DNA of 64,000 bases from the NCBI GenBank assembly GCA_018105865.1, contig CM030841.1, forward strand, positions 12,692,182 to 12,756,181. The letters run 5' to 3'. Below the pieces are notes generated by a model. The model was given only the letters and a program-made list of their open reading frames with translations, was not told where the DNA came from and searched no databases. Both the position numbers and the translations under genes were made by a program. This stretch comes from Metaphire vulgaris (taxonomy: Eukaryota > Annelida > Clitellata > Crassiclitellata > Megascolecidae). This document shows, one piece after another, positions 8,855 to 62,667 of the stretch (the first letter of the stretch is position 1; each line of letters opens with the position of its first letter).

Positions 8855-9736
8855 TCAATCGATGCTAAGCAGAAGATTATGAGGCAAGTAACCATTGTTG
8901 TTGCCAGGATAAAATCCGGTGTCCTGAATAACAGGATCTAAAAAGTTTAAATTGACACCGCTAAGACTTTGTTTAGAATGTGAAGGAAATTCCTCTTCCG
9001 TTGTCTTTGCTGCGCTAATTGGGCAGCTGTCGTTGACAGCCAACGCTTCTGTGCCGACAAGTATATCATCAGTCAGTGACTGGCCCTCACTTAGGGTCGC
9101 CAGAAGCTCATCGAGGTGGCTAACAGGAGGCACAGACTGTGTGCTGTTTGAATCGAGTTCTCCTGGTTGATGGTCAAAGCAAACCAGCAGAGTTGGATCT
9201 TCATTCCGGCTGTCGGTTGTACTTCTGCATGATTCTGGTTGATTTCTTGGAATAGATACCGCTGTTGTCGGTATCTGCTCTATCTTCGTGTATCCAATAT
9301 CTGAGAAGCCGCTGGCAATGGGAAAATGAAAATCGTTACAATAGTCAACTTTACCGTCCTTTGTATCACTAGCCAAACAGTTGCCAATGTTCTCTGGCGT
9401 GTTTCCACCTTTCATCCAATTTATCTCTTCCGGGAGAATATATTGTGTCGGGTGGGCTTGAGGCTTCACATCTACGTCCACATTGGGCACAATCCTGTAT
9501 GAGGTGATATCAAGAGCACTGCTGTCACTGCCATCATCATCCTCGATTGTTTCGATACCAGTAAAATTCTTTTGCTGGTAACAGTTTCTGCCTCTATTGG
9601 TATCCATTTGGTCTTTCAATTTGTCATTTATTTCCAAAAGAAGCGGCAACATAGCTGGAGAAGATGGTGGAAAACTGTAATGGCCGCTGTCGTGAGAACC
9701 AGTGCTCACTTGGCTCGGCTGTCTCCAATACTGCAC
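8855..9736 (-). CDS. Receptor exon 15: cytoplasmic tail and stop
   Basis: Acceptor AAAATTTCAG before 9736, phase 0; stop TGA at 8855-8857. Encodes 293 residues, acidic and Ser/Thr-rich. Tyrosines sit in contexts such as CYQQK, SYRIVP, QYILPE, DYCND, GYTKIE and, 11 residues from the end, GYLPHN. No exact YXXQ STAT3 site is present; YLPH and YQQK are near forms. Confidence 0.9.
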   Translation of the reverse strand: MQYWRQPSQVSTGSHDSGHYSFPPSSPAMLPLLLEINDKLKDQMDTNRGRNCYQQKNFTGIETIEDDDGSDSSALDITSYRIVPNVDVDVKPQAHPTQYILPEEINWMKGGNTPENIGNCLASDTKDGKVDYCNDFHFPIASGFSDIGYTKIEQIPTTAVSIPRNQPESCRSTTDSRNEDPTLLVCFDHQPGELDSNSTQSVPPVSHLDELLATLSEGQSLTDDILVGTEALAVNDSCPISAAKTTEEEFPSHSKQSLSGVNLNFLDPVIQDTGFYPGNNNGYLPHNLLLSID

Positions 9737-11932
9737 CTGAAATTTTACAATATCGGTACTTTATTGTACAAATCTGTCACTGCTCACTGTAACAATTAAG
9801 ATAAGTATAGTTTTTACAGCGGGAAGATAGAAGAGTGGTAACATCATTGGACTGTAGAGCCAACGGAAGCGAGTTCGAGACTCGCAGGAGTCCTGGGTTT
9901 GACTCGGCCTTCACTCAATTGCAGCGGTAAAATGAGTAGCAATGGCAACATTGCAAAGGTAGCCATAGGTTCGGCGGAAAAGGCTGGCCACTGTTCGCTG
10001 GTGAATGGCTGACACCTATGGGCTGATGGCCACAAAAAGGGGTCAGCACCGGACCCTGTTGGCACTGAACTTATGGGTGAACCTTTACTTCACTTTTATA
10101 ATTTTCACATTTTTATAATTTATTTTAAAAGGAATTTAAATGAATTGCTCAACTAGAAGTGCAATACAATAAATTTGTCATACCCAATTACCCATGATAC
10201 AAAAATATGGCAGAAGGAGAAAGAGTGGCATGCCTCAATAATACTACAGAACTAAAGGAAATCCAGATTTGTAAATAGTCATCATAAAACTTTCTCACCA
10301 AACAACAGCTACTGAGTCGTTGCAAAATGTACTAAGGATCTACAAATGAAACTGGTAGGAGACAACTTTCTGTTGTAGGACCAAAATGTATTGTACTTTA
10401 CAGCGATCAGACCAGGACTGTGTAATTAACTTCTGACATTGGTCTGCTCAGGTGAAGCTTTCACAACATTTAGATCAAAAATCAAACCTCACTTGTTCTA
10501 CATGTAGCCTATGTGCCATAACCAGAATGGGAAAAATCAGAATGACTTATTGGATCTGACCAGAGGAACTAACAATAAATTCTACTTTGGAGCAACCACT
10601 GACTTATGTCAAATGCATAACTAAAATGGTACTATAGAAGGACTTTAGCTAGCTAGCTTGCTAGTCAGTTAGTTTAACCATGACTTAACAATTCATTATG
10701 TTACCTCAGTGTGACCTTTAAGCACTGGTACCTCACTCGAAGTGCTCGACAGCTGAAACTGAAAATTAGACACAAACACATCTTCATTAAATAAATACAT
10801 TTCGAGAAAATGTATGCGTTCTCAGCAACTACAACTGTTATAAGTAGTATCAACAAATATGACTCCTTGATCAAGATATCGCAGCATTATCTTTGAAAAG
10901 AAATTACATTCAGGTGATATCATCTCAATACTACTACACAACTTTCCAGTCACAAGACCGATTCCAGCTGCCTAAATCTCATGGGGCACAGAGGGCACGT
11001 GCCACCCCAAAAATCTGTTTGCTAATTTCTTGTCATGGCAAAAATCTGAAAAATTATAAGGATAATAAATAAGCATTATCTTTTCTTCCTTTTCAAGAAT
11101 TTCAACTACAAGCATTTGAAGGGACTTGCAGGGTGGGTGAGAGTGAGACAGGGCAAGGCAGAATGGGAATGAAGTCAAAGCACCCTCAAACTGAAATTCT
11201 GGATATGCCCCTACTCCAAGCAGCAAAATCTTTCAGTTGATAGAAGCAGAGAGCTGTTTGCCAAACTCAATTTAAAATGACCTGTAAATATACAGGCATG
11301 ACACTTACTCTTTGCTGTGGTAGACTGACTTTAAATCCTGACGTTAACTTTTTCCGGTATTTGTCGCAGCAACTGAAACAAACAAATGTTTACTGTCATT
11401 CACTCAAGAATGAAAAAGATCACTCATATAACAGCAAATACCTTGACTTCGTAATATAGGTAATTAACAGTTTACAGATCCTTCTTCTTTCGACTTTCAC
11501 AAATGTCTTGAATGCACCACTGATATTCACAATCAAATGTCATTCAGTAAATTCTCCATTAAAGTAATGAAAACCTAGTTTCATGGCACCCACCGGAAAG
11601 TCACATAGAGACCAAAGATAACAACCATGGATGCAAGCAAAACTCCGACAGCTATTCCGACAATTTTTCCAGGCGTAAACCCTAGTAACACAAAGAATTA
11701 TTATTAAAATAACGTTAAGTCTTCAAATATTCTGGCAAAAATACTTCTTCATTCCAATAACAAAACTCCAACCTAGGTGGCATTCTGGGCTAAAAACTGG
11801 GGCCATGGAAATTGCTGACCTTGGGGTCCATTTGTCACAGTTGCAACATTTGTGACCAATTTGATTATTAAGCTGTGGTCTAGTTTCAATACAATATACA
11901 TTAGACAGACTATAAAGACAAATTACTTAAAC

Positions 11933-11967
<35 letters not shown>

Positions 11968-12132
11968 GTATAGTATATGCTGTTTAGAGACCCATAAAGT
12001 TTATTTATTTGCAAGAGACCCTGGAAATTTTCCATGCCATTATAAGGCCAATATGGCCCGCCCATCACACCCTTTATAGTGACAAAAAAGTCACAGAATA
12101 TAGTATTCATGATTCTACGTGTATAAGCTCCA

Positions 12133-12192
<60 letters not shown>

Positions 12193-14989
12193 CAGATTTC
12201 CTAAATTAAAAGCCTATCAAAATGCAAAAAAATTTTGAGAGTTGTCAGTTTAAAGGTAGAGAGAAATACTTTATGACTTAACGGGCAAAGAAAATTCGTT
12301 AATGTTATGAAGAAGTAAAATGCCAGAGAGTCAGTACATGGCTGGTGTGTTCTTCCGTAGACAGATTCAGAAGGTTTGCTTGATCCCTGTCTTGAATTGC
12401 TCTTCATCCAGACCCTGTACGTTGCATGGGGATCAAGTCCTTTCAGTGTAAAACCTCCGTCACCATGACCGGAAATTCTGAGATGATCCAGGTATTTGAA
12501 AATGACTACAGACTGGCTTTCAGCTGAAACAGTTACCATACAAGATGAATCTACTGAGCTACTGAAGTAGCCTGTTGGAGTTTTGTCGCTATACAAATTT
12601 TTTTAGCACTCTCCCCTCAAGTTATAAAGCTGATGTCATCGCTGACTGTACCACTTGGAACAGAAAACAAGAGAAAACAAATCTGACTCAATCGAATAGA
12701 TCTGACGTACACGTGCACTGATTTCAGATGATCCACAGGACAGTAAAAGATGGTGAAAGAACGGACACAGGCACTGAAATCACTGTAGCGTGGCTCCTTC
12801 CAGCTGACTTGCAGCTCGCTGTGCTTCCCAGCTGGAACTGAGATCTTGAGTCCCTCGGGAGCATCAGGCACTAAACAAAATCACATTGGAATAGGGCACT
12901 CTAGTAAATCAAATCCATTGCACATTTAAGTAAATAAGTAAGCAAGCAAAATATTGTGGATCTATATAGCACTTTCGAAAGTAGTACAACAACAGATGAT
13001 TAATTATTCTTAGGTGTTTATAGCCTTTCCTAAAATAGCTATGAGAAAGGCGAATGATCAGCCAGGCAATGGTCTATATATTTGAAGGGCAGTGAGGCTA
13101 GGTTGTTATAGCTATGGAGGAAATTATTCTAGAAAAAGGTCCACAGTGGACCAGTTCATTATAGTTACTTTGAAATCCAGTTAGTATTCAAGTGACGGTG
13201 AAACAAAATGGTCATAAACCCTCGGTGGCCCAGCTAAAAAAGTGTTCTTTACTTGCCCACCCTAGGCCAATCTGGACCTGAATTCTCTAAACCCATTATT
13301 GGCAGAAAATTCTCTATACAAGTGATTCAGACTACACAAGCAAGTAATACACTTTCCCGTTGTCTAGTCATCACATGATAATCACTAACTGTTCGTATGT
13401 CTTTGCTGCTGAATATACTTGTACTGTTAGTGAAGTCAATTTTGCATTCGCATATAAGCGTTTGTGTATAGCCAGACGCAAGTCATATGCAAAACGCATA
13501 TGCTACACTAGCATAGCAAATAATTGCAATTGTCATAATAATAACAGCGGTATTCACACCTATTATACTCATGATATTATGATATTATATTCATGAAGAC
13601 AAAGAACAGACCGACTGCCCAGCGACGCGCAGCATGTCTGCATCTAAACTACCAGTATGCGCACGTCTTATACAGTGTATTGACCATGCCTTTCTTGTGA
13701 TTGTAAAATATAAAAATTTCTGGCAAGTTTTCCTCATCAACCGTTGCACACACACACACACACATATAATGGCGCATTGTTGAAATAGATATGACTGGTT
13801 TGCTCTTTTGAGTGATGCATGAAACTAGTCCACAACTGTCATGGAAACCAGACATTCAGCAGAAGACTTCCTCTTCAAGTGTCATGTATTGCTTGTTAGC
13901 AACCACGAATTTCCACTCCTCTCTGTTTTTGGTTTTCCTTGTCAGTTCAATGTTGTCTTTAGTTTTTGTTGCTTCTCTTAGGCTGTCTGTATACTTTATT
14001 CTTTGTCTTCCTCTTGCTCTTCTCCCCTCTAGTACAAGACTACTCTTTGCATGTTTCGCTTGGTGGCATTTCTGGGGGAGTTTCATCACGATTCTTATGC
14101 AACAAACCTACATATGAGAGATTGTGTTTTGGCAGCTCCTCAGTTAGGAAAAATGATGAAAAAATTGTAAAGAACAAGGTAAAAGTCATAGACAGATCAG
14201 GGTCAACTGGAGAGCATAGTCTAAATAGTAGATTCTTATTTAGGCTTATTTAGGCCAGGTGATTCACACAAAAATTTCATTTCTACAACTGCAATGAAGT
14301 AACTAAAACGTTTTCTCCCAGTTCAAAGAGCAAAAACTGGTTTACAGAGTAAAAAAGTCAACTTAACATATTTAACGGTTTCGAATTTATCCAACGAATT
14401 GTAATGCACGGGTCCGGTTGGATACATACATTACAGCCAAGAACTGTTTATGAATTCTGTTACTAACGTTTAGTCAAAGAGTAGCTTCTCAAAGACCACT
14501 TTATGCCTGAATAACCACTGCCTGAGAACTTGACACTTGCACCAAATTGGAAATTCTTAAATTCTTCATCAACAGTGAGATTGAAATCACGATGCAATGG
14601 ATTATTGATCGTTTGCCACTGAATGGGAGTCTAAAAGAAAATCACATAAACCTGTAGACAAATTTGTTTAACATTCTTCATTTCAAATGTGACTGCACGA
14701 TGCCCTCCTGGTATAAAACTAAGTAAGTGAATATGCAAAATCATGTGAATTTTTATAGCGCCTTCAAAAGCAGGTACCTCAGTAACTGCTGCTTATTCCT
14801 AGGTGATTAATATACAGTTGAAATAGCTATAGAAGAAGCTTAGTGATGCACCAGGCAAGGTAAATTCCAGATATCAGTTAGAGTGGGAGTGGGGAAGCAG
14901 CAAGAACAGACTATGAAAATATACTGAAAGAGAAGTGATTTAACTATAGATTTCATAGTACTATAGTATCATTGTATTATATGTAATGT

Positions 14990-15045
<56 letters not shown>

Positions 15046-17264
15046 CTCAACTGTGTCTGAAAATGGCAAAAATGTACCAATGGCAATGAGACAGTGGTGT
15101 AACAGAAGAAGACATCATCACAATACTGCAAAATTAAAAGACAAACTAAATCTGTTATAGGCCTATATTCCATTTAATACAGAGAAAAATTGTGCAATGC
15201 AGGGGAAGCATGGCAAAATGAGACAAGAAGCACTTAAACCATGAAAACACTTATGAGAAAAGCATGAAAACAAGACATGCTGCAAGTGATGAAATAAATG
15301 CAACTAATGCATTTATAGCTGCCCATAAGCGTAGATCACCGAAATGGAGCATACAATTATTAATTTCAATTTAAGATTTTTTTACTTAGTTAGGTTAGGT
15401 TAGGTAAAAGTCAATTTATATAGCACAAAAACATGAACGAAGAGTCAAAGGCTAGAGTGCTTTACACTAATTACGAGTTCTAGAAGAAGTATTAGTATTT
15501 GTGAGAATTCATTATTATGAATGGCATGGTTTGATTCATATATGATAATTCCATCTCAAGTTTGTATTCATATTTTTTATTTAAAGAAAACCACTTCAAT
15601 TGCTATGTACCGTACAATGCGTATCATCAATACTGAATATAAAATTGTAATTTTTCTAATTAGCCTCTTTCAACACGGAGATAGGTAACAGCAGGAAGCA
15701 TGGTACCTCCTTAGCTTCCCCGGCAGTCACCCATCCACTCGCCACACAGCTTAACTTCAGTGACATCAAGCAGCAGATCATTTTAAGTACAATGTTTTGA
15801 GAACTATCAAAATAACAGGTGGTCATAATGGGCCTGTCGACACTAAGGAGTAATGAATGGGGATATGCTCCTACCTTGCATGTCTGGTGAAAGTCAAGAG
15901 GTTGACACCAAAACAACATAACAGATTCAATTCCTCTGTCAAAAGAGGGCTTTTGGACAAACCAATCGACTGAAACAATCTTGTCCTGTCCTTCGGCAAT
16001 TACCTCGATGTCAAAAAACAACTGGTCATCTGAAACAAGCACTTTATCATATTAAATCAATAAATTTCTTTGTTAAATCAACAAAATACAGATATTACTG
16101 TCATGCATCAATAATCAACCAAAAATTATCTAACCAAAAAATTATCTAACAACTAAGCATTGTCAATAGTCATGTCTCCCTCCCCATTTTCCCATCATCA
16201 TCATCATCATCCTGACTTCTGAAGCTCATATACTAAAAAGAGTCCAACAGTCATTAGTAAATACATCTATTTAACTCCAAAGAATGTATCTGCAGCTTCA
16301 ACTCTGCAATGGGGCCAAGTAGAGCAGCAAATAAATGTACAAACTCTGCTTTTTGACCAATAATGCACCCTAGTTATTCAATTTCTAAAACACTGTGGTA
16401 TCAATGGAGAGGTACTACAAAAGACCAGGTCCAGTGTCTGAGATGTAAGTTCAAACATGCTTAAACAGTACCGGTAATTCTTAGCATTCGAGAGACTTAC
16501 GTGGAAAAACCAAAAGTCACTATCGAGGGAAAGCCAACAAACGCAAAGGCATAAAATTTGGTCATAATCGAAACCACCTAATACAAAACCATAGACTTCA
16601 GGCAAAAACTACCGGTATGTACAGAATCTCTTTTAGTCCTATGGCTAAAAGACTGTGACAACATTTAACATATAGATGAATAATGACGAAAGTATCTCTG
16701 TCGGATTGCAAAGCTAAGAATACACATTCAGCTAAAATCCCACCCCATCCAGTATCGTACAGAATACCAAAATGCCAAAAATGTACAACTGACCAGAAGG
16801 AACATGAATGGCTAGCGATGGAAGCAGAGCAGAACCAATTTTATTTTGTGAAACTATCAACAGATCGCTTGTAAATCCCGTCCACGTCATCGCAGTACTG
16901 TAGCAGGAGTGGTCACACCCAGGATGTACAGAAGAACTAAGCATAGTTCTGTTGAACACATAATAGTGAAACTCTGACCCACAGTAATTCTTCTCCGATA
17001 TTGGCTGAAATTAAAATACAGTATGTCTTGTCTATGATGGTCACGATTTACTGAGAAACATATCCAAGAACTAGGTGAAGCCTAGTGTTCAACCAATCAC
17101 AGGTGATGATTCAACACTGTGCAGCCATCGTCTGCATTTCTGTATTATTTCGCATTAAAGCAAATCTCAAAACTCTAAAATTTTCAGTTTATATGCATTG
17201 ACTGTTTCTAGAAACAAAGATTTAATTTATGTACATACATACATACATACATACATACATACAT

Positions 17265-17295
<31 letters not shown>

Positions 17296-20200
17296 AACAC
17301 ATACTGGTATAAATACGTGCATGCATACATACAATGTCTTTATTCAGAAACCATGACAGAAAGCAAGGTCAAACAACAGGCTTATCACAATGCCTACCTT
17401 AAATGTTCAAACTATGCAAAAAAAGAAATTCATTTATCTACATTTTAGTCCTAAATATAACATTCTTATAATAAAGTTTGGCAAATTAAAATGATTGCTT
17501 TAATCATGGGTAGACTTTAACAAACAAGTGAAGCTTGAGTTTGAAAAAGGAAGATAAAAGAAATTAATTGCATATAAATAGGTAATTGCAAGATAAAGTT
17601 CAGCAAGCATAACAGAGAGCTGTAAAAATATGAGAAGAAAAGAAAAACTGTAGAGGATAAAAAGTTATGAAGCAAACAAAGACTACAGATAGGATGAGAA
17701 GAAGAAGAAGAAGAAGCAATGAAATGTTAAAGGCAAAAGTATAACCAAACAAGATTTAAATGGATTGTACCTGAAACAGTTACTGTTCTCAAGGATAAAG
17801 AAAGAAAGTAAACACAGCTTAGGATAAAGGTTCCTAAAGATTATATGGGATATAGAAGATAAAGCTACTATAACTTAACTTATTGGATATTGGATTTAAC
17901 AATGGGAGACGAAGATTCAAATCAAATAGCGACCATCAACTGACATCAAGAGCATGACTAAAATGGCGCTATAGAAGTTCAAAGATGACGACTATGATGA
18001 CGACTATGATGACGACTATGATGATGATGATGATGATGACGATGATGATGTTTATCATTCTCAATAAAAGGTCTCAAATGACTAGGACTTTACCTGCCAG
18101 TAAAGAACAAGCATTCTGTCAGCAATATTAACAGAATAGAAGTTTGCCATAACAAATGGATTTTCGCTTGGCACTAGAATAAAGAAACAGACTTGATTGA
18201 TCAAATCAAAATCATCATCACAATTCAAATGCAACATTTGCAGAAGAAGTTGGGATATTACCGGCACGTCATAAAAATATTCAGTGTCTGCTCCTGATCA
18301 AACCATCTGTGATATTCTCTCCCCTCCCCATCCCTTCCTGGATTCGCACCACCTTATCCATCATCACTAAGATGGCATTTTCAAAATTCATTAATTCCTG
18401 TCAACCTCAAGAATAATCTCACGGTATTCAGATAATTCGGAAGATATTTTGATGTTCAACAGCGCTGCAGACTTTCAAAACAAATGCATATTTTTTCAAT
18501 CAACATCTACAAAACTTATTGAAAGCCTTTTAGCCACTAAAAGGGTTAGAAAGTGAGCAGGGGTGAAAACGTCAAAACCCTTATATCAGAAAACTATAAT
18601 GATACTTATTTGCACACCAAAAATTAAAGCAAAACATGTTAATTAAAGTTTGTTTCAAATCTGTTGATAGGTTTACAATAAAGCACGATATATTGGTAAA
18701 TTTGTCTGATTACTACACTTTCCTGGTTTAGTGCTATATATTACAGTGATTTCCACAATTCTGACGATTCTAATTTAATAATTTACAAATTACCAGATAT
18801 ACAAATATGCCATTTGCAGCAAACACACAGTGTGAGTTATGGTGAAAATGATTTGGAAAAAAGTCAAAACTACAAACAGTTCAGATATTTCCATTTCGAC
18901 TGGACGTTATGTAGTTCTAAAAAAACTCATGTCTCATTTCTTCAAATCAATGTCACCGTAACCTCAATAATAGAATTTCAATCGCTAAGCTAAACTGCAA
19001 AAGTTCCTTTGATAAATAAACTATTCAGGTACATAGACAATACCGGCAGATGCAGATAATAGTGTGGAGAATGCTCGATCGCTTGAGAAACCGCGCTCTG
19101 ACGGAAAAGCGACAATCGAGATGGAATATTCAGTGTACGGCACAGCCGATACATTTAGCCAAGTGTCGTTGACAACAGTAAAGTTGCGAACCTAAAGAAG
19201 TTCATAATACAACTTGTCCTAATCTACGGATTTCGAAAAAGCACTTATAAACATGTCAATAAAAAAGTAAAAGTTTTTGATTAATTAATTAATTAAAATT
19301 TTTTAATAAAATGAATGCATAAGTCATTCATCCCAATAATGTTAAAAGTAGGGCTGCAGATATTAACGATTAATTAATTGATTAATCGTTAAAATTTCTT
19401 TAATCGATTAAAATTTCTTTAATAGATTAATTTTTCGATTAGATTTTAATATTTTCTTAACTTATTTACTTGAATACCTACTTAGCTTACTATATTAATA
19501 GTAATGAAAGCAATGCTGCAATTAAGCATTTAAGAAGAGAGATGAGCAAGCACTTTTGTTTAGTTTTTAATCTAACTGCAGACGGCAAAGTAGACAATAT
19601 GCAGAGTTACAATGCCAGGAGATCAGCTAAAAGCTATATGTAATTATTTTAATCAAAATTAATCAAAATTAATCGATTAAAAGTTTTTTCGATTAATCAA
19701 ACAAGAAAATTTTAACGTTACCAGCCCTATTTAAAAGTAATCTCTGTCAATTTTCTGTTGCATGCTTCTCAGAGAACAATCATTATAAAATGAGATATTT
19801 GTTAATTTAACTTTTTATATATAAAAAATCAGATGTGAAACCATAGAAATCTAAATAAAAATTTGCAAAAATAACCAATATAAATATATATATATATATA
19901 TGCAATCTCAACAGCATAGATTTTTGAACAATAAAGTAAGGCACTTCAGCTGCAACAGGCTTATCAAATAATGGAAGAAAATAAAAATAGGCCACAGTGC
20001 AAATGACAAAAATCATAAATTAGAGCAGAGCCCACCTCCCTCTTGGAATGTACAACAACATGGTAAATCACAGGCACTCTTTCAACAGTGGGTGCACGCC
20101 ATTCAATGGACAGCGCTTTTCCATCTTCCGCAGAAGTGTTTCGAATGATGGTAGGTGGCTTAGGTTTAACTAAAAATCAGCACAAAACAAATAAAATCCT

Positions 20201-20867
20201 ACGCTACAGTAACAACTCAACAGCCGAAAAAATATTTAACACAACTTAAATATATAGCAACTCATTTAGAAAGCTAATTATTCCAAAAATTGATGCAAAA
20301 TGGTAATTTCAACATTGTTTGAATGTAGCTTGCTTACGGTTTAGAATATTTTAAATCAAAATCAAGGTGGATGTGGTTTCCGCAGAACCTGAAGGCTCAA
20401 GAGGTGACAGAGGGATAAGTGATATCAAGGAGCAAAAATCAAACCATAAATAAACTTAATAGAAGTAGAGAGTGCAAGTGGGAAAATGAAACAGATGGGA
20501 TATGAATCAGAGAACCAATGGAAACTTCCAGATTGCAGAGAACAGGGACAAGGGTAAGAGGACCTCTAAATATAATTATAATCAATTACACAATGGCATT
20601 GAATACATTCAGTTCCTAAGTTCATAATGTTTGACTACATAGGTGATCAAAAGTTGGAAGCTTAGCAGCATGACGGTTTGCAATGTGGATATTATTTTCA
20701 AGTCTTTGGTTATTGACTGAATTAATGCAGCGGTGAATGGGAGTTAACTTCTGTAATTGTGACTGCTTCAGCTACTGTATTCTTAGTCATAATCTCATAG
20801 CAAGAATTTGCACACAATGCATATCTAATATACCGGGTATAGATATATTTACATATTATATTTATAG

Positions 20868-20912
<45 letters not shown>

Positions 20913-23900
20913 CAGATTGTTAGCATGAGATGATTATATGATTATATTCTAGATACCAGTGAAGTCTGCATGCAGCAATAAAAGCTCCATTAATTTTTAA
21001 TAAAAAAGATATATATATATATATATACACATATGCATACAGAAGGTACACTTGTCCACAAACTGCTCTTTATCTATCCAACTGCATAGCACAATATACA
21101 TAATTATTACCGGTGGATGTTAACTCTACTGTGAAAGAGTACGTCAAGTTTTTTTCACTGCTTCATTATACCTATTACCCGTAATTACCCTGTAATGTAC
21201 TGCAACATAGCAATGCTGTATTATACCGTACCAATGAGCTCAGGATTTCGACACTCGACCACAGACGAAATATTAGGCGTCTCAACACCCCCCACAACAA
21301 TTTTGATGCAGTATTCCTCCTTCATCGTAAAACTTTCTGACCGCCAGAAACATTGTTCTGAGGGCGTTTTTGGCCTTTCTGGGCATTCAATCCAGTTATC
21401 ACCATCACTAAATATGAAGAAGAAACATCAAGAAAGTTGGTATTAATAATATTTCAGATGTCAGCATTAAAGTTGACAAGAATGTCATGAAATTCTAAAG
21501 TATCCAATTTTCATATGTCAATTACTTAAATACCTATGGTTGACCAACATGCGGGATCCTATTCCCTTAGGTCAACCCTTTTCTCAATGATAATTCTTTT
21601 AGGTACCGTGGCATTGGTCAACAGGGCGCGATTTGTAGGGTGGGAAGGGCGATTCCCCCCCCCACTGCCCAACTGCATCCCCCCAACTGCTACATCCCTT
21701 CACCACTATATCCCCCCACTGCTACATTTCCACAACAACTACATTCTCCCAAACTCTCCCCCCAAATACCCCCCCCCCACTGCTCCAGTCACAAATCGCA
21801 CCATGCTGGTCAAATATGTTGTTATCAATCTATCAATAACTATAGCAACTCTGGTGTCATTGTGCAGTAGAGACTGTTCAGATTAAGACAATTTCGGTTT
21901 ATAATAATCGCATGTATCTGCAGTCACCAGATTTCAAAACATCGTCACTTGGAAGTGCCAAAAGCACGCTGGCATGAATGCTAAAAAAATTGTTGGTAGT
22001 ATGACAACATTTTTGCTTAGAGCGCCCTACACAGGTCAGGAGATGGTATCTGTTGACACCCACCCCCACCCCTCTCCCACAGATTCAACGGTGTCAGCAC
22101 TCGATGAAGCAGAAATCAACACTAGCGATAAGATTGATTTTTATGTAAAACGTTGTTCAACATGAACTCGTCAATTTATAGCATAGAACAGTCCCTGCGT
22201 TCACTCATTTAAAGGACATAAGTACAGTCAGCTCAGATACTGACTCAGAAAATAAATAGTGTGGTGCTCTAAATGCAATGTCATTAAGCTCAGTGTTTTT
22301 CAATTCAGGACTGTCCTCACCATCATTATTATTACTATGTACGGATGTATGAAGTAAAAGAGACCTATTCTACAGTTTTTTCACCATCCTTATAAATACA
22401 AATAAATATCATAGATTTCTTTGGAATCGATTACCACGAAGCTTGGGTTCATACGGGCGCCTTTTACCAGCCCCTGGAGTACAAGTAAACTGCACCCAAC
22501 TGTCTTTCTTATCGTCATAGCAGGGATATTTTTACACCCCCCTAACAACCTCCCCCCATTTGAGGTCGACACCCCCAAAATTTAGTAATGTGACAATGGT
22601 ATGCATGTAAAATGCATATTGATTAGCCCTGAACACTCCCAAATGGAGAAGGACACCCCCAACTTTTATCCTCAGATGACCCTTTTTTTGCTTGTCAGAC
22701 TTTTTCGGAAGAGATTTCCAAACTCCGACACCCTCCAGATTTTCCCGACACCCCCTCCCCAAATTCACAATCCTACAATCCTAGAAAATAATCACACACC
22801 TCCAGATTTTCCCGACACCACCCAGAAATTCACAATCCTAGAAATAACCCTGCATCATAGTGCTGTCATCGCACGCTTTGACTGTTTCAATATGGATCTC
22901 CACGCCTCTCAATTGGCTGCCTAACTGCACATATTTTAAAATAAGTCTACACTATAAATTAGGGATCGTATACCCATTGCATTGCAAATAGCTGCTAGCT
23001 TGTACCGGTAATCAGAGGCGTAGCTAGGGGGCGGGTGGTACATATGTCCCAGGGCACCAAAATCGGGTTTGTGGTAGCAAAAAATCTAAAAGAAACATCA
23101 ATTTAGTTGTGACAACCTTTTTTGCTTCTCAGGGTTTTCATGAAGTTGAGGGTTGGGTGCCATCGGTATGCTTTGTCCCCGGGCGCCGGACACCCTAACT
23201 ACACCTCCGCTTGTAAAACAATAGAATCAGAACTGGAATAACTAACCCAGGATGCTGCCACAAAAGCTTCTGCCTCACAGACCGTATTGAAGTCATATGT
23301 TTAGTCTGGGTCGATGCATTTGGACCCCACGAGCAGACTAAAAACTCCCAATTTTCCACAGTGCACCCAGATCAAATATGGCATGAGAGGAATTCCTACA
23401 AAAATTAAAAAACAAAATCGTTCGGGTCATTCGAGTACGTCTTCCTTTACAAAGAGAAACTGGAATCACTGATAGAAGGCTATTATAATTAGCACTCAAT
23501 TTTGAAATGTTTCACTCAATTTCTACCATTAAAGACTAGAACACTGTAAAAAACTACTGTAAAAAACTAATTCCAATCCCTAAATTTCTACTCCCAACGT
23601 TGGGGAGTTGTCCTCATCCAGCAAGGCATTAAACCCTCCAAGGAGTCCAAGCCCACCTCCAAATCAAACATTGCTCATGAGCGATTGTCAAATCCTCAAA
23701 TCACTTTTCTAATGTAAGATTCCAAAATGCAAAACTCATATCAAGTATTCATGAAAAATTCTTATATCTATGGACAAAAATTGCACCTACTTCTGACATT
23801 CACAGACTGTGCATTCTGAAAATAATAGCCACTGACGTTGCAGGTGGGAGGGAGTTCACACGAGAATCGTCCATTATTTTCAACCGTCACATTTGGAAGA

Positions 23901-24338
23901 CTAAATTGTGCAGTTTTGTCGGTAATGGCTTGAATGTGCGGATACTTAAAATCCATGTTATTATGGCGAATATACAAATCCCTGGCACTGCACGGTCCAC
24001 TGTACAGTGACGTCAGCGTGCAGTTGAGAACAAGAGTATCAAATTCTATAACTTTGGGATTATCGGGCTTCATTTCTGTCAAAATAAAACAGCAAATGTC
24101 TAGCCTATTGCCATTAAGGCACAGTAAAAGTAATGTTTTAAATATAAAATGATATATAAAATAAATAAATGAAGCAAGAAATGTTTTAAAATCAAAGTGT
24201 GGATGAATGAAAGCCTTAGTTCATCTGGTACATACCAACTGGTCCTGGGTGATCCAAGAACCCAAAAGTGATTGAGTTCAGTGACAGGAAGGCAATCACA
24301 AAACTGATAAATATTGAAGTTCCCACCATCTTAAACAT
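8855..24338 (-). CDS. gp130/LIFR-like class I cytokine receptor
   Basis: Fifteen coding exons join in frame into 985 residues: 24236-24338, 23787-24075, 21232-21407, 20036-20169, 19044-19191, 18094-18173, 16794-17004, 15875-16029, 14468-14630, 12711-12870, 12338-12588, 11594-11681, 11309-11372, 10705-10758, 8855-9736. Order: signal peptide (1 to about 26), Ig-like domain (35-130), gp130 D2-like second half with paired Cys (131-189), D3 (190-283), three further fibronectin-III units (284-380, 381-486, 487-623), membrane helix (about 630-652), basic stop-transfer CCDKYRKK, and a tail of about 333 residues. D3 opens VKPKPP as gp130 does and ends with GFSSDRAFST where WSXWS is expected. Exon phases (1, then 0 or 2, then 1) follow the two-exons-per-FNIII pattern of this family. 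Inferred role: cell-surface, JAK/STAT-coupled receptor. Orthology to gp130 rather than LIFR or others is not resolved. The first half of D2 was not found. Confidence 0.87.
9830..10080 (+). mobile_element. tRNA-derived SINE in the last receptor intron
   Basis: A perfect T-arm (GCGAG, TTCGAGA, CTCGC at 9869-9885) acts as B box, preceded by an A-box-like TAGAAGAGTGG. The body is GC-richer than the surrounding intron. The absence of a full tRNA fold and the long unrelated 3' body argue for a SINE rather than a tRNA gene. Confidence 0.6.
10705..10758 (-). CDS. Receptor exon 14: short cytoplasmic exon
   Basis: Eighteen codons in phase 0, FQLSSTSSEVPVLKGHTE, with donor GAG|GTAACA. The acceptor is a CAGTTTCAG tandem, so use of the second AG would drop Phe-Gln. 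EVPVL could be part of a diverged box1. Confidence 0.78.
11309..11372 (-). CDS. Receptor exon 13: juxtamembrane segment
   Basis: Consensus acceptor TTTGTTTGTTTCAG and donor AAAGA|GTAAGT, phase 2 in and 0 out. Reads CCDKYRKKLTSGFKVSLPQQ. The basic cluster fits the cytosolic face. This is where a box1 JAK motif is expected; only the loosely proline-containing SLPQQ is seen. Confidence 0.85.
11594..11681 (-). CDS. Receptor exon 12: transmembrane helix
   Basis: Acceptor GTTACTAG, donor TTCCG|GTGGGT, phase 1 in and 2 out. Reads GKIVGIAVGVLLASMVVIF, then GLYVTFR: one hydrophobic helix flanked by basic residues. Confidence 0.9.
12138..12191. repeat. (AT)n microsatellite
   Basis: Long pure TA run in the receptor intron between exons 11 and 12; an (AC)n run sits nearby at about 11938-11963. 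Confidence 0.95.
12338..12588 (-). CDS. Receptor exon 11: second half of D6
   Basis: Acceptor TTTGTATAG, phase 2 in; donor CCAT|GTACTG, phase 1 out. Reads GGFTLKGLDPHATYRVWMKS, then GSSKPSESVYGRTHQP, the F-G strand end of a fibronectin-III domain. Confidence 0.88.
12711..12870 (-). CDS. Receptor exon 10: first half of D6
   Basis: Acceptor TTTGTTTAG, donor CACGT|GTACGT, phase 1 in and 2 out. Reads PDAPEGLKISVPAGKHSELQ, then VSWKEPRYSDFSACVRSFTI, a textbook fibronectin-III first half. Confidence 0.9.
12950..13175. repeat. Interspersed repeat, copy 1 (pairs with 14745-14890)
   Basis: TATATAGCACTTTCGAAAG, TTATTCTTAGGTG, AAATAGCTAT and GCCAGGCAA recur in the same order at 14745-14890. Likely a SINE-like family; ends not defined. 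Confidence 0.5.
13856..14089 (-). mobile_element. LINE ORF C-terminal relic
   Basis: Minus-strand frame contains RRARGRQRIKYTDSLREATK and RKTKNREEWKFVVANKQ, the charged tail typical of LINE reverse-transcriptase ORFs. Related relics at 26520-26860 (plus) and 32690-32880 (minus). Confidence 0.65.
14468..14630 (-). CDS. Receptor exon 9: second half of D5
   Basis: Acceptor TTCTTTTAG, donor AAAC|GTTAGT, phase 0 in and 1 out. Reads TPIQWQTINNPLHRDFNLTV, then FGASVKFSGSGYSGIKWSL. GYSGIKWS resembles a relaxed WSXWS-type end. Confidence 0.85.
14745..14890. repeat. Interspersed repeat, copy 2
   Basis: Shares ordered blocks (TATAGCGCCTTC, TTATTCCTAGGTGATTAAT, AAATAGCTATAG, CACCAGGCAAGG) with 12950-13175. 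Confidence 0.5.
14991..15040. repeat. (CT)n microsatellite
   Basis: Pure CT run in the receptor intron between exons 8 and 9. Confidence 0.95.
15875..16029 (-). CDS. Receptor exon 8: first half of D5
   Basis: Acceptor CTTGTTTCAG, donor TGCAAG|GTAGGA, phase 1 in and 0 out. Reads DDQLFFDIEVIAEGQDKIV, SVDWFVQKPS, then ESVMLFWCQPLDFHQTC. Confidence 0.87.
16794..17004 (-). CDS. Receptor exon 7: second half of D4
   Basis: Acceptor TTTTAATTTCAG, donor TTCTG|GTCAGT, phase 0 in and 1 out. Reads PISEKNYCGSEFHYYVFN, then CDHSCYSTAM, then LLIVSQNKIGSALLPSLAI. Four Cys suggest extra disulphides in this domain. Confidence 0.87.
17231..17296. repeat. (ACAT)n then (AC)n microsatellite
   Basis: Tetranucleotide array passing into a dinucleotide run, receptor intron between exons 6 and 7. 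Confidence 0.95.
17986..18051. repeat. 12-mer GATGACGACTAT array with (GAT)n
   Basis: Three tandem copies of GATGACGACTAT run into (GAT)n, only about 40 bases from the donor end of receptor exon 6. Confidence 0.9.
18094..18173 (-). CDS. Receptor exon 6: first half of D4
   Basis: Acceptor ATTCTAG, donor TGGCAG|GTAAAG, phase 1 in and 0 out. Reads VPSENPFVMANFYSVNIADR, then MLVLYWQ with the core Trp. Confidence 0.85.
19044..19191 (-). CDS. Receptor exon 5: second half of D3
   Basis: Acceptor TTCTTTAG, donor GCCG|GTATTG, phase 0 in and 1 out. Reads VPYTEYSISIVAFPSERGF, then SSDRAFST. The last motif occupies the WSXWS position and is degenerate. Confidence 0.9.
19349..19729. mobile_element. hAT-type MITE filled with TTAATCGATTAA units
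   Basis: Ends TAGGGCTG and CAGCCCTA, with target duplication GTTAAAAG (19341-19348) against TTTAAAAG (19730-19737), 7 of 8. Near both ends the interior repeats AATCGATTAA-type palindromes. Lies between receptor exons 4 and 5. Confidence 0.82.
20036..20169 (-). CDS. Receptor exon 4: first half of D3
   Basis: Acceptor GATTTTTAG, donor GGGAG|GTGGGC (weak but in phase 0). Reads VKPKPPTIIRN, then ALSIEWRAPTVERVPVIYHV: the proline-rich entry and core Trp of a fibronectin-III domain. Confidence 0.87.
20871..20910. repeat. (AT)n microsatellite
   Basis: Pure AT run in the receptor intron between exons 3 and 4. Confidence 0.95.
21232..21407 (-). CDS. Receptor exon 3: second half of D2
   Basis: Acceptor TTCATATTTAG, donor ATTG|GTACGG, phase 2 in and 1 out. 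Reads DGDNWIECPERPKTPSEQCF, then KEEYCIKIVVGG. The Cys-X10-Cys arrangement and following strands match the second half of the gp130 D2 domain. Confidence 0.85.
21622..21805. mobile_element. hAT-type MITE, CAGGGYGCGATTTGT family
   Basis: Ends CAGGGCGCGATTTGT and ACAAATCGCACCATG; duplication TTGGTCAA (21614-21621) against CTGGTCAA (21806-21813). Inverted relative to the copies at 36170 and 61776. Confidence 0.88.
22521..22852. mobile_element. hAT-type MITE, CAGGGATATTT family
   Basis: Ends CAGGGATATTTTTACACC and AGAAATAACCCTG; duplication CGTCATAG (22513-22520) against CATCATAG (22853-22860). It splits an open frame that would otherwise run from 22924 to 22390 on the minus strand. Confidence 0.88.
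23012..23214. mobile_element. Probable hAT-type MITE, CAGAGGCGTAGCTAGG ends
   Basis: Left end CAGAGGCGTAGCTAGGG and right-side CCCTAACTACACCTCC are imperfect inverted repeats. I could not read a target duplication. Confidence 0.55.
23787..24075 (-). CDS. Receptor exon 2: Ig-like domain D1
   Basis: Acceptor TTTTGACAG, phase 1 in. Contains LVLNC and NNGRFSC, an Ig-type Cys pair, plus further Cys and NCT, NVT and NVS sequons. Two donors are possible: AGAA|GTAGGT (end 23791, phase 1) and GTAG|GTGCAA (end 23787, phase 2). Only the second keeps frame with exon 3 directly. Confidence 0.85.
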
Positions 24339-26519: not shown

Positions 26520-26860
26520 ACGCTACTAAAGAATGAATGGGTATTAGAGAAGGGAGGCATTGCAAGAGAATTTTTGGAGTCTATCAAGAGAAGAAAACTG
26601 TCATACCTTTGGCCACTTCATGAGGAAGACAGGTACCTGTTTGGAAACAGAAATTATACAAGGCACAACTGATGGGAAAAGAAAAAAAAGGCAAACCCAG
26701 AACCAGATGGACTGATAACATCATGCAATGGACTGGAAAGACAATGGAAATGGCAAGCCGAATGACAGACAACAGAAAACAATGGAGAAATCTCATTCAT
26801 TGTAGCAGATGGCTGAAGACAAGACTAAAGAATAGATTAAAAAGCTAGATTAAAATGAGC
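26520..26860 (+). mobile_element. LINE ORF C-terminal relic, frameshifted
   Basis: One frame gives GKPRTRWTDNIMQWTGKTME and NRKQWRNLIHCSRWLK, the typical charged LINE reverse-transcriptase tail. The preceding part is in another frame. A short AAT tail follows at about 26888-26902. Confidence 0.65.
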
Positions 26861-61951: not shown

Positions 61952-62107
61952 CTTGTAAGCCTTGTAGTTTTGTCATGCAGTCACCAGTTGAGATCAGAAA
62001 TCCTAGAATCCTATTGTCCCGATGCCTCCAGTAATTCTGAATAGTAAAAATAGTGAAAATGAGAAAGTAAGCAAGTCTAACCCGTAGATTGTTGTTTAAT
62101 TTGTCAG

Positions 62108-62667
62108 TGTCTGAGATATTCAATTCGCATAGCATTGGACTTCGAGCACAGAAGAAACTCCTCGGAAAGATGACCTCGCGAAAGGTCATTCAGACATTCA
62201 TCGACGAGAGAAGCGGACAGTTGTTAGATGACCTCTACCATCTGGTTAAAGATCATTACGATCGGAAGCGGGCAGAAAAGGCGATCAAGTACATGATCAA
62301 GACAGTAATAAAGATCGGCATTCTTTTTCGCAATGATCAGTTCAGCGTGGAAGAACTGGACTTGGTAGAAGACTTTAAGAAGAAATTTCGAACGCTTGTT
62401 ATGACCGTTGTAAGTTTTGCTCAAGTAGAGTTTTCGTATGATCGTGCTTTTCTCGTGAAAATAATGAACGAGTGTCGCGACTTGATTAAGAAATTGGTCT
62501 TGCGACATCTCACCGAGAAATCTTTGCAGCGCATAGACAATGTCTTTGAAACCTTTGGCAGCTGTGATTTCTTGGATGCAGTTTTTAAGTCGGATAGCCC
62601 ACATGAAGAGGCTAAATTCAAAGTGATCCAAGACCTCAATGTATTGCTTGAAGCCAATATGGTTTAA
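62108..62667 (+). CDS. TNFAIP8L: TNFAIP8/TIPE-family protein, main exon
   Basis: A single large exon encodes nearly the whole protein. It starts after acceptor TTTAATTTGTCAG at 62107 in phase 1 (VSEIFNSHSIGLRAQKKLLG) and stops with TAA at 62665-62667. Family blocks: AQKKLLGKM, FIDERSGQLLDDLYHL, KAIKYMIKTVIKIGILFRND, FKKKFRTLVMTVVSFAQVEF, LRHLTEKSLQRIDNVF and FGSCDFLDAVF. These are the six-helix TIPE fold, a lipid-binding cytosolic protein that shuttles phosphoinositides and modulates death and immune signalling. The vertebrate family has one big exon after a small 5' exon, as here. If the upstream exon is non-coding, translation could begin at the internal ATG at 62170 (MTSRK). An ATG at 62089 is in frame but lies before the acceptor. 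Which vertebrate paralogue is closest cannot be decided by eye. Confidence 0.94.

Follow-up and report, generated by a model that had tools for sequence, protein, structure and literature searches.

A Gene for a Probable Class I Cytokine-Receptor-Like Signal Transducer of gp130/G-CSFR Layout in a 64-kb Window of Metaphire vulgaris

Introduction

A stretch of 64,000 nucleotides of Metaphire vulgaris contig CM030841.1 (assembly GCA_018105865.1, positions 12,692,182 to 12,756,181), referred to here as the window, carries on its minus strand a multi-exon gene that an earlier note on this DNA took for a gp130-type cytokine receptor. The question raised by the locus is whether the product is a receptor of this group or an unrelated protein built of Ig and FN3 domains. 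The product is, with a probability of about 0.8, a class I cytokine-receptor-like signal transducer laid out as gp130 and G-CSFR are. The predicted order is a signal peptide, an Ig domain (D1), a cytokine-binding module (D2-D3), three FN3 units next to the membrane (D4-D6), one helix and a putative signalling tail. Judged by sequence, the gene is not classed as a gp130 orthologue, and the nearest solved sequences are those of the leptin receptor and the growth hormone receptor.

Results

The gene model

The gene was rebuilt from 24338 to 8855 as 15 exons that run in frame from ATG to TGA and encode 959 amino acids. Splicing was deduced from the genomic sequence alone. The fifteen-exon chain described in the earlier note was borne out, as both ends are exactly those given there, all 14 introns are GT-AG and the phases are consistent at each junction. 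None of these exons has an internal stop in the proposed frame, and the last one is open for 293 codons, which has a probability of 3.4e-8 under an independent and identically distributed model and was reached by none of 3000 equally long first-order Markov sequences. The codon score was best in the proposed frame for 14 of the 15 exons, E6 being the exception and E11 nearly tied. The GC content of the coding sequence is 0.443, compared with 0.371 for the gene span, and one acceptor, that of E12, is weak. In all likelihood the receptor gene is real. Fusion of two or more genes in the model was rejected because the phases agree throughout and codon bias is present in 14 of the 15 exons.

A probable missed exon

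The chain of 15 open exons stood, but it lacks half of D2 and probably missed a sixteenth exon. FN3 units do follow the Ig domain, but the first of the five that had been proposed is only a half domain in that model. Exon 2 has an alternative donor (gtaggt, last exon base 23791) four bases before the gtgcaa donor of the 15-exon model; it ends in phase 1, and the choice between the two determines whether exon 3 fits into the reading frame. The 2.4-kb intron before exon 4 holds one candidate exon, 23337-23247, that links the alternative donor to exon 4 in phase 2. The candidate was chosen with simple splice filters, which were set after it had been seen. Its translation reads ICSWGPNAS..., and 43 of 3000 random introns yielded an exon in which CxW lies about equally far along.

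The sequence upstream of the candidate was also considered. The acceptor at 23395 opens a stretch with P..P..C-like residues in the phase-1 frame. A full C-X9-C-X-W is open from 23365 downwards in another frame, where a stop codon precedes the first cysteine, and chance produced C-X9-10-C-X-W in 284 of 3000 random introns. With the in-frame acceptor at 23337, C-X-W alone is kept. Exon 3 is likely to be part of the gene. The frame break at 23338-23395 may stem from a sequencing error or from damage to this allele, or the inner acceptor may be the one used.

Resemblance of the domains

The proteins were compared by phmmer with 177,635 distinct PDB sequences. At E<=5 the 15-exon protein had ten matches. 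The top five were growth hormone receptor (best E 0.016), with alignments covering exon 4 and the beginning of exon 5; the remaining five were adhesion and phosphatase FN3 proteins. The matches became almost solely class I receptors when exon 3 was added to the query. With it, D1-D3 gave leptin receptor or growth hormone receptor in 10 of 11 matches (E<=10), the best being leptin receptor at 1.4e-4. Likewise, 10 of the 11 matches of D2-D3 (E<=10) were class I receptors, with leptin receptor at E 2e-4 and growth hormone receptor at E 0.004, and those below E 1 were class I receptors exclusively. Reversed D1-D3, used as a control, gave a single match, NCAM2 at E 0.43, and none of class I. gp130 itself was not among the PDB matches of the 15-exon protein, D1-D3 or D2-D3.

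A profile of eight vertebrate modules scored 34.7 bits over a single stretch (positions 21-195), compared with 9.8 for the best of 2000 shuffles. Moreover, the six domains pair in order with those of gp130 and G-CSFR; the observed order included, 7 of the 720 permutations reach this pairing for gp130 and 1 of 720 for G-CSFR.

Pfam detected fn3 in the 959-residue protein (E 2.4e-13), the best stretch being D6 (E 3.9e-11), which alone passed the cut-off. Below it were Ig_2 in D1 (E 0.001) and fn3 in D3 (E 0.0038); D2, D4 and D5 gave no Ig or fn3 match, and no cytokine-receptor model was matched. Among 5.8 billion proteins no homologue was found, either with the whole receptor as query (5581 candidates, none at E<=1) or with D1-D4 including exon 3 (1333 candidates, none at E<=10). 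The Ig exon folded alone (predicted local distance difference test, pLDDT, 63.8) had no Foldseek match at E<=0.001. There was no Ig receptor among the best 50 rows of either fold search, a result that weighs neither way.

Hallmarks of the class I and gp130 groups

C-X(10-15)-C is present in exon 4 as C-X10-C. The Ig domain, the module and the three FN3 units follow one another in the gp130-group order, as seen from both the exon chain and the in-order pairing. The hydropathy profile has one N-terminal peak, at the signal peptide, and a single helix at residues 604-622; the part C-terminal to it comprises 335 residues with ten tyrosines, and a YXXQ STAT site is present by sequence as YWRQ at residue 669. 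The earlier description of a signal peptide, one helix and a tyrosine-bearing tail was thus confirmed by the hydropathy peaks and the tyrosines after the helix, and exon 5 does start with VKPKPP, the opening of D3 that it had singled out.

Vertebrate split-exon modules have the phase series 1-2-1-0-1. In the present gene the module is divided among several exons, and the phases run 1-(exon 3)-2-1-0-1, then 0-1-0-1-0-1, exon 3 itself being only probable. The rebuilt exons also agree with the earlier observation that each of the units D3 to D6 is split in two with phase 1 at the outer borders; the inner phase is 0.

Evidence against the assignment and alternative explanations

Several observations weigh against a class I receptor of gp130 layout. 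In the present sequence, the reading frame of 23338-23395 does not continue into the CxW half. The W-to-C spacing is 34 residues compared with the published 26-32, a figure that depends on the exon 3 donor. GFSSDRAFS stands at the position of WSXWS in the second FN3 unit of the module. A PxP Box 1 was seen neither in juxtamembrane exons 14-15 nor in any convincing alternative exon; three overlapping candidates for a cassette exon that would supply a proline-rich Box 1 were of poor quality and were rejected. Furthermore, D3-D6 with the helix, searched without D2, matched PTPRF best (E 0.0014) and also neuroglian, Dscam and the insulin receptor, with no cytokine receptor among the 25 PDB matches. 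What stands of the gp130-type identity claimed in the earlier note is the class I module with the gp130 layout; the nearest PDB matches and the site of WSXWS do not fit it, and a PxP Box 1 was not seen.

The PTPRF match raises the question of whether the gene encodes an Ig/FN3 adhesion or guidance receptor of the LAR/PTPRF, neuroglian or Dscam kind, with a D2 that is cytokine-like by chance. The earlier note had reckoned with just such a placement in an unrelated FN3 family, and D3-D6 do match PTPRF best, but the human gp130 module as query matches PTPRF too (E 2.9e-13). Because gp130's own module does so, the match of D3-D6 is, in sequence terms, a generic FN3 likeness that does not discriminate. 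The D2-D3 matches under E 1, all of class I, also speak against an adhesion receptor, as do the cysteine-rich D2 with CxW and C-x10-C and the presence of a single Ig domain followed by FN3 units in gp130 order. In addition, Pfam at E<=1 gave fn3, fn3_4 and a weak Ig_2 alone over the 959 residues, and neither a phosphatase nor a kinase domain. An adhesion or guidance receptor is accordingly regarded as unlikely.

A class I receptor copy that is damaged or does not signal, whether a pseudogene, a decoy or a short co-receptor, is about as improbable. Such a copy would explain why the possible upstream part of exon 3 and the CxW half lie in different frames and why a Box 1 is not recognisable. However, the other 15 exons are open and have splice sites, with codon bias in 14 of 15, and the long tail retains its ten tyrosines, YXXQ among them.

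Proposed mode of action

A class I signal transducer of this layout would most likely act, by analogy, as the gp130 and G-CSFR receptors do. If the gene is expressed and spliced as modelled, a secreted helical cytokine may be held by D1-D3 of two receptor chains, and D4-D6 would bring the membrane helices together. A JAK, presumably bound at the juxtamembrane stretch, would then phosphorylate tail tyrosines, and YWRQ could recruit and activate a STAT.

Table 1. Exons of the receptor gene in 16-exon numbering, with positions in the window
Feature	Position	Strand	Description
Exon 1	24236..24338	-	Start codon, signal peptide; ends in phase 1; hydropathy up to 2.03, residues 9-27
Exon 2	23787..24075	-	Ig-like D1; donor of 15-exon model gtgcaa, ends in phase 2
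Probable exon 3	23247..23337	-	CxW half of D2; enters in phase 1, ends in phase 2
Possible upstream part of exon 3	23338..23395	-	More pyrimidine-rich acceptor tgtag; frame differs from CxW half
Exon 4	21232..21407	-	Second half of D2, C-x10-C
Exon 5	20036..20169	-	First half of D3, begins VKPKPP
Exon 6	19044..19191	-	Second half of D3; GFSSDRAFS where WSXWS is expected
Exon 7	18094..18173	-	First part of D4
Exon 8	16794..17004	-	Remainder of D4
Exon 9	15875..16029	-	First half of D5
Exon 10	14468..14630	-	Second half of D5
Exon 11	12713..12870	-	First half of D6
Exon 12	12338..12512	-	Second half of D6; weak acceptor gaaagccag
Exon 13	11594..11681	-	Transmembrane helix; hydropathy 2.75, residues 604-622
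Exon 14	11309..11372	-	Basic juxtamembrane stretch; single LP at the expected place of Box 1
Exon 15	10705..10758	-	Cytoplasmic
Exon 16	8855..9736	-	Cytoplasmic tail, nine of ten tail tyrosines, YWRQ, YLPH near end, stop codon

Other features of the window

The window appears to be gene-poor, with two genes recognised in 64 kb among the open reading frames scanned. The second, at 62071-62667 (+), is a TNFAIP8-like gene (Pfam E 4.6e-67) whose product is 99% identical over the conserved part to one database protein. In a tree built from 70 relatives, found by a search limited to proteins that have short words in common with the query, so that the absence of a species counts for little, the window protein fell in a well-supported clade (98/93) of 38 rows, itself and 37 database proteins; molluscs, arthropods, amphioxus, starfish and the sponge Oscarella lay outside. 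The source labels of the 37 were ena (19), lgn (18), jgi (3) and ncbi (2), some proteins having two; they probably denote bulk and metagenome assemblies. Pattern searches for TNFAIP8 loci gave 52 matches in the viral contig collection and 62 in the prokaryote one, none of which was confirmed.

Open reading frames at 26624-26848 (+) and 13856-14107 (-) contain R-T-R-W-T-D / R-Q-R-I-K-Y-T-D stretches that by eye resemble the C-terminal ends of LINE-type (long interspersed nuclear element) proteins. The region at about 9820-10090, in the intron before the last receptor exon, looks by eye like a transfer RNA (tRNA)-derived short interspersed nuclear element; ARAGORN found no tRNA gene, and Rfam at gathering scores found nothing. 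Long ATT and GA microsatellites occur at about 6.9, 25.5, 26.1, 27.9 and 43.7 kb.

Discussion

The present gene has in common with gp130 (IL6ST) and G-CSFR the Ig domain, the D2-D3 module, three FN3 units, the helix, the YXXQ tail and the order of the domains. The leptin receptor, the best PDB match of D1-D3, also has the VKPxPP linker, but it carries two cytokine modules where the present gene has one. The growth hormone receptor matches D2 over the ECP...C...YCIK stretch; it is not known to have an Ig domain or D4-D6, all of which are present here. Neither it nor the present protein has a strict WSXWS, and the variation of the growth hormone receptor at this motif has been described (PMC1963337).

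CRLF3 is described as belonging to the same cytokine module family, but it is short, retains WSXWS and has no cysteine signature (PMC1963337). It has been reported from Cnidaria upwards and as absent from Porifera (PMC6797617). A 2026 survey reports JAK and STAT from sponges without an IL6R/gp130-like receptor, traces such receptors to molluscs and places vertebrate IL6R near the IL6R of sea squirt, acorn worm and sea urchin (PMC13203501). In searches of the literature on sponges and class I cytokine receptors, no listed paper had a title or abstract opening that reports a sponge receptor of this class.

The earlier statement that receptors of this completeness are rarely described outside vertebrates proved overstated, since gp130/IL6R-like receptors had already been described in sea squirt, acorn worm, sea urchin and molluscs, as had Domeless in arthropods (PMC1963337, PMC13203501). 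In a bilaterian invertebrate, such a receptor belongs to an already known kind. Domeless is described as a gp130-related receptor of class I that has three FN3 units, as the present gene does, and a site for STAT binding, and a region of about 200 amino acids after its module is described as absent from vertebrate receptors (PMC2914635). The Domeless module is reported to be a single exon, in contrast to the several exons found here, and the ancestral class I receptor is proposed to have had the gp130/Domeless layout (PMC1963337). The sea squirt gp130-like protein and the 'IL6R' of molluscs, sea urchin and acorn worm also have, according to their published descriptions, the order of Ig domain, module, FN3 units and transmembrane helix (PMC1963337; PMC13203501), and the splice structure of the sea squirt gene is likened in the text to that of gp130 (PMC1963337). 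Beside these receptors, a well-preserved invertebrate gene with the split-exon plan adds a data point on the age of that plan.

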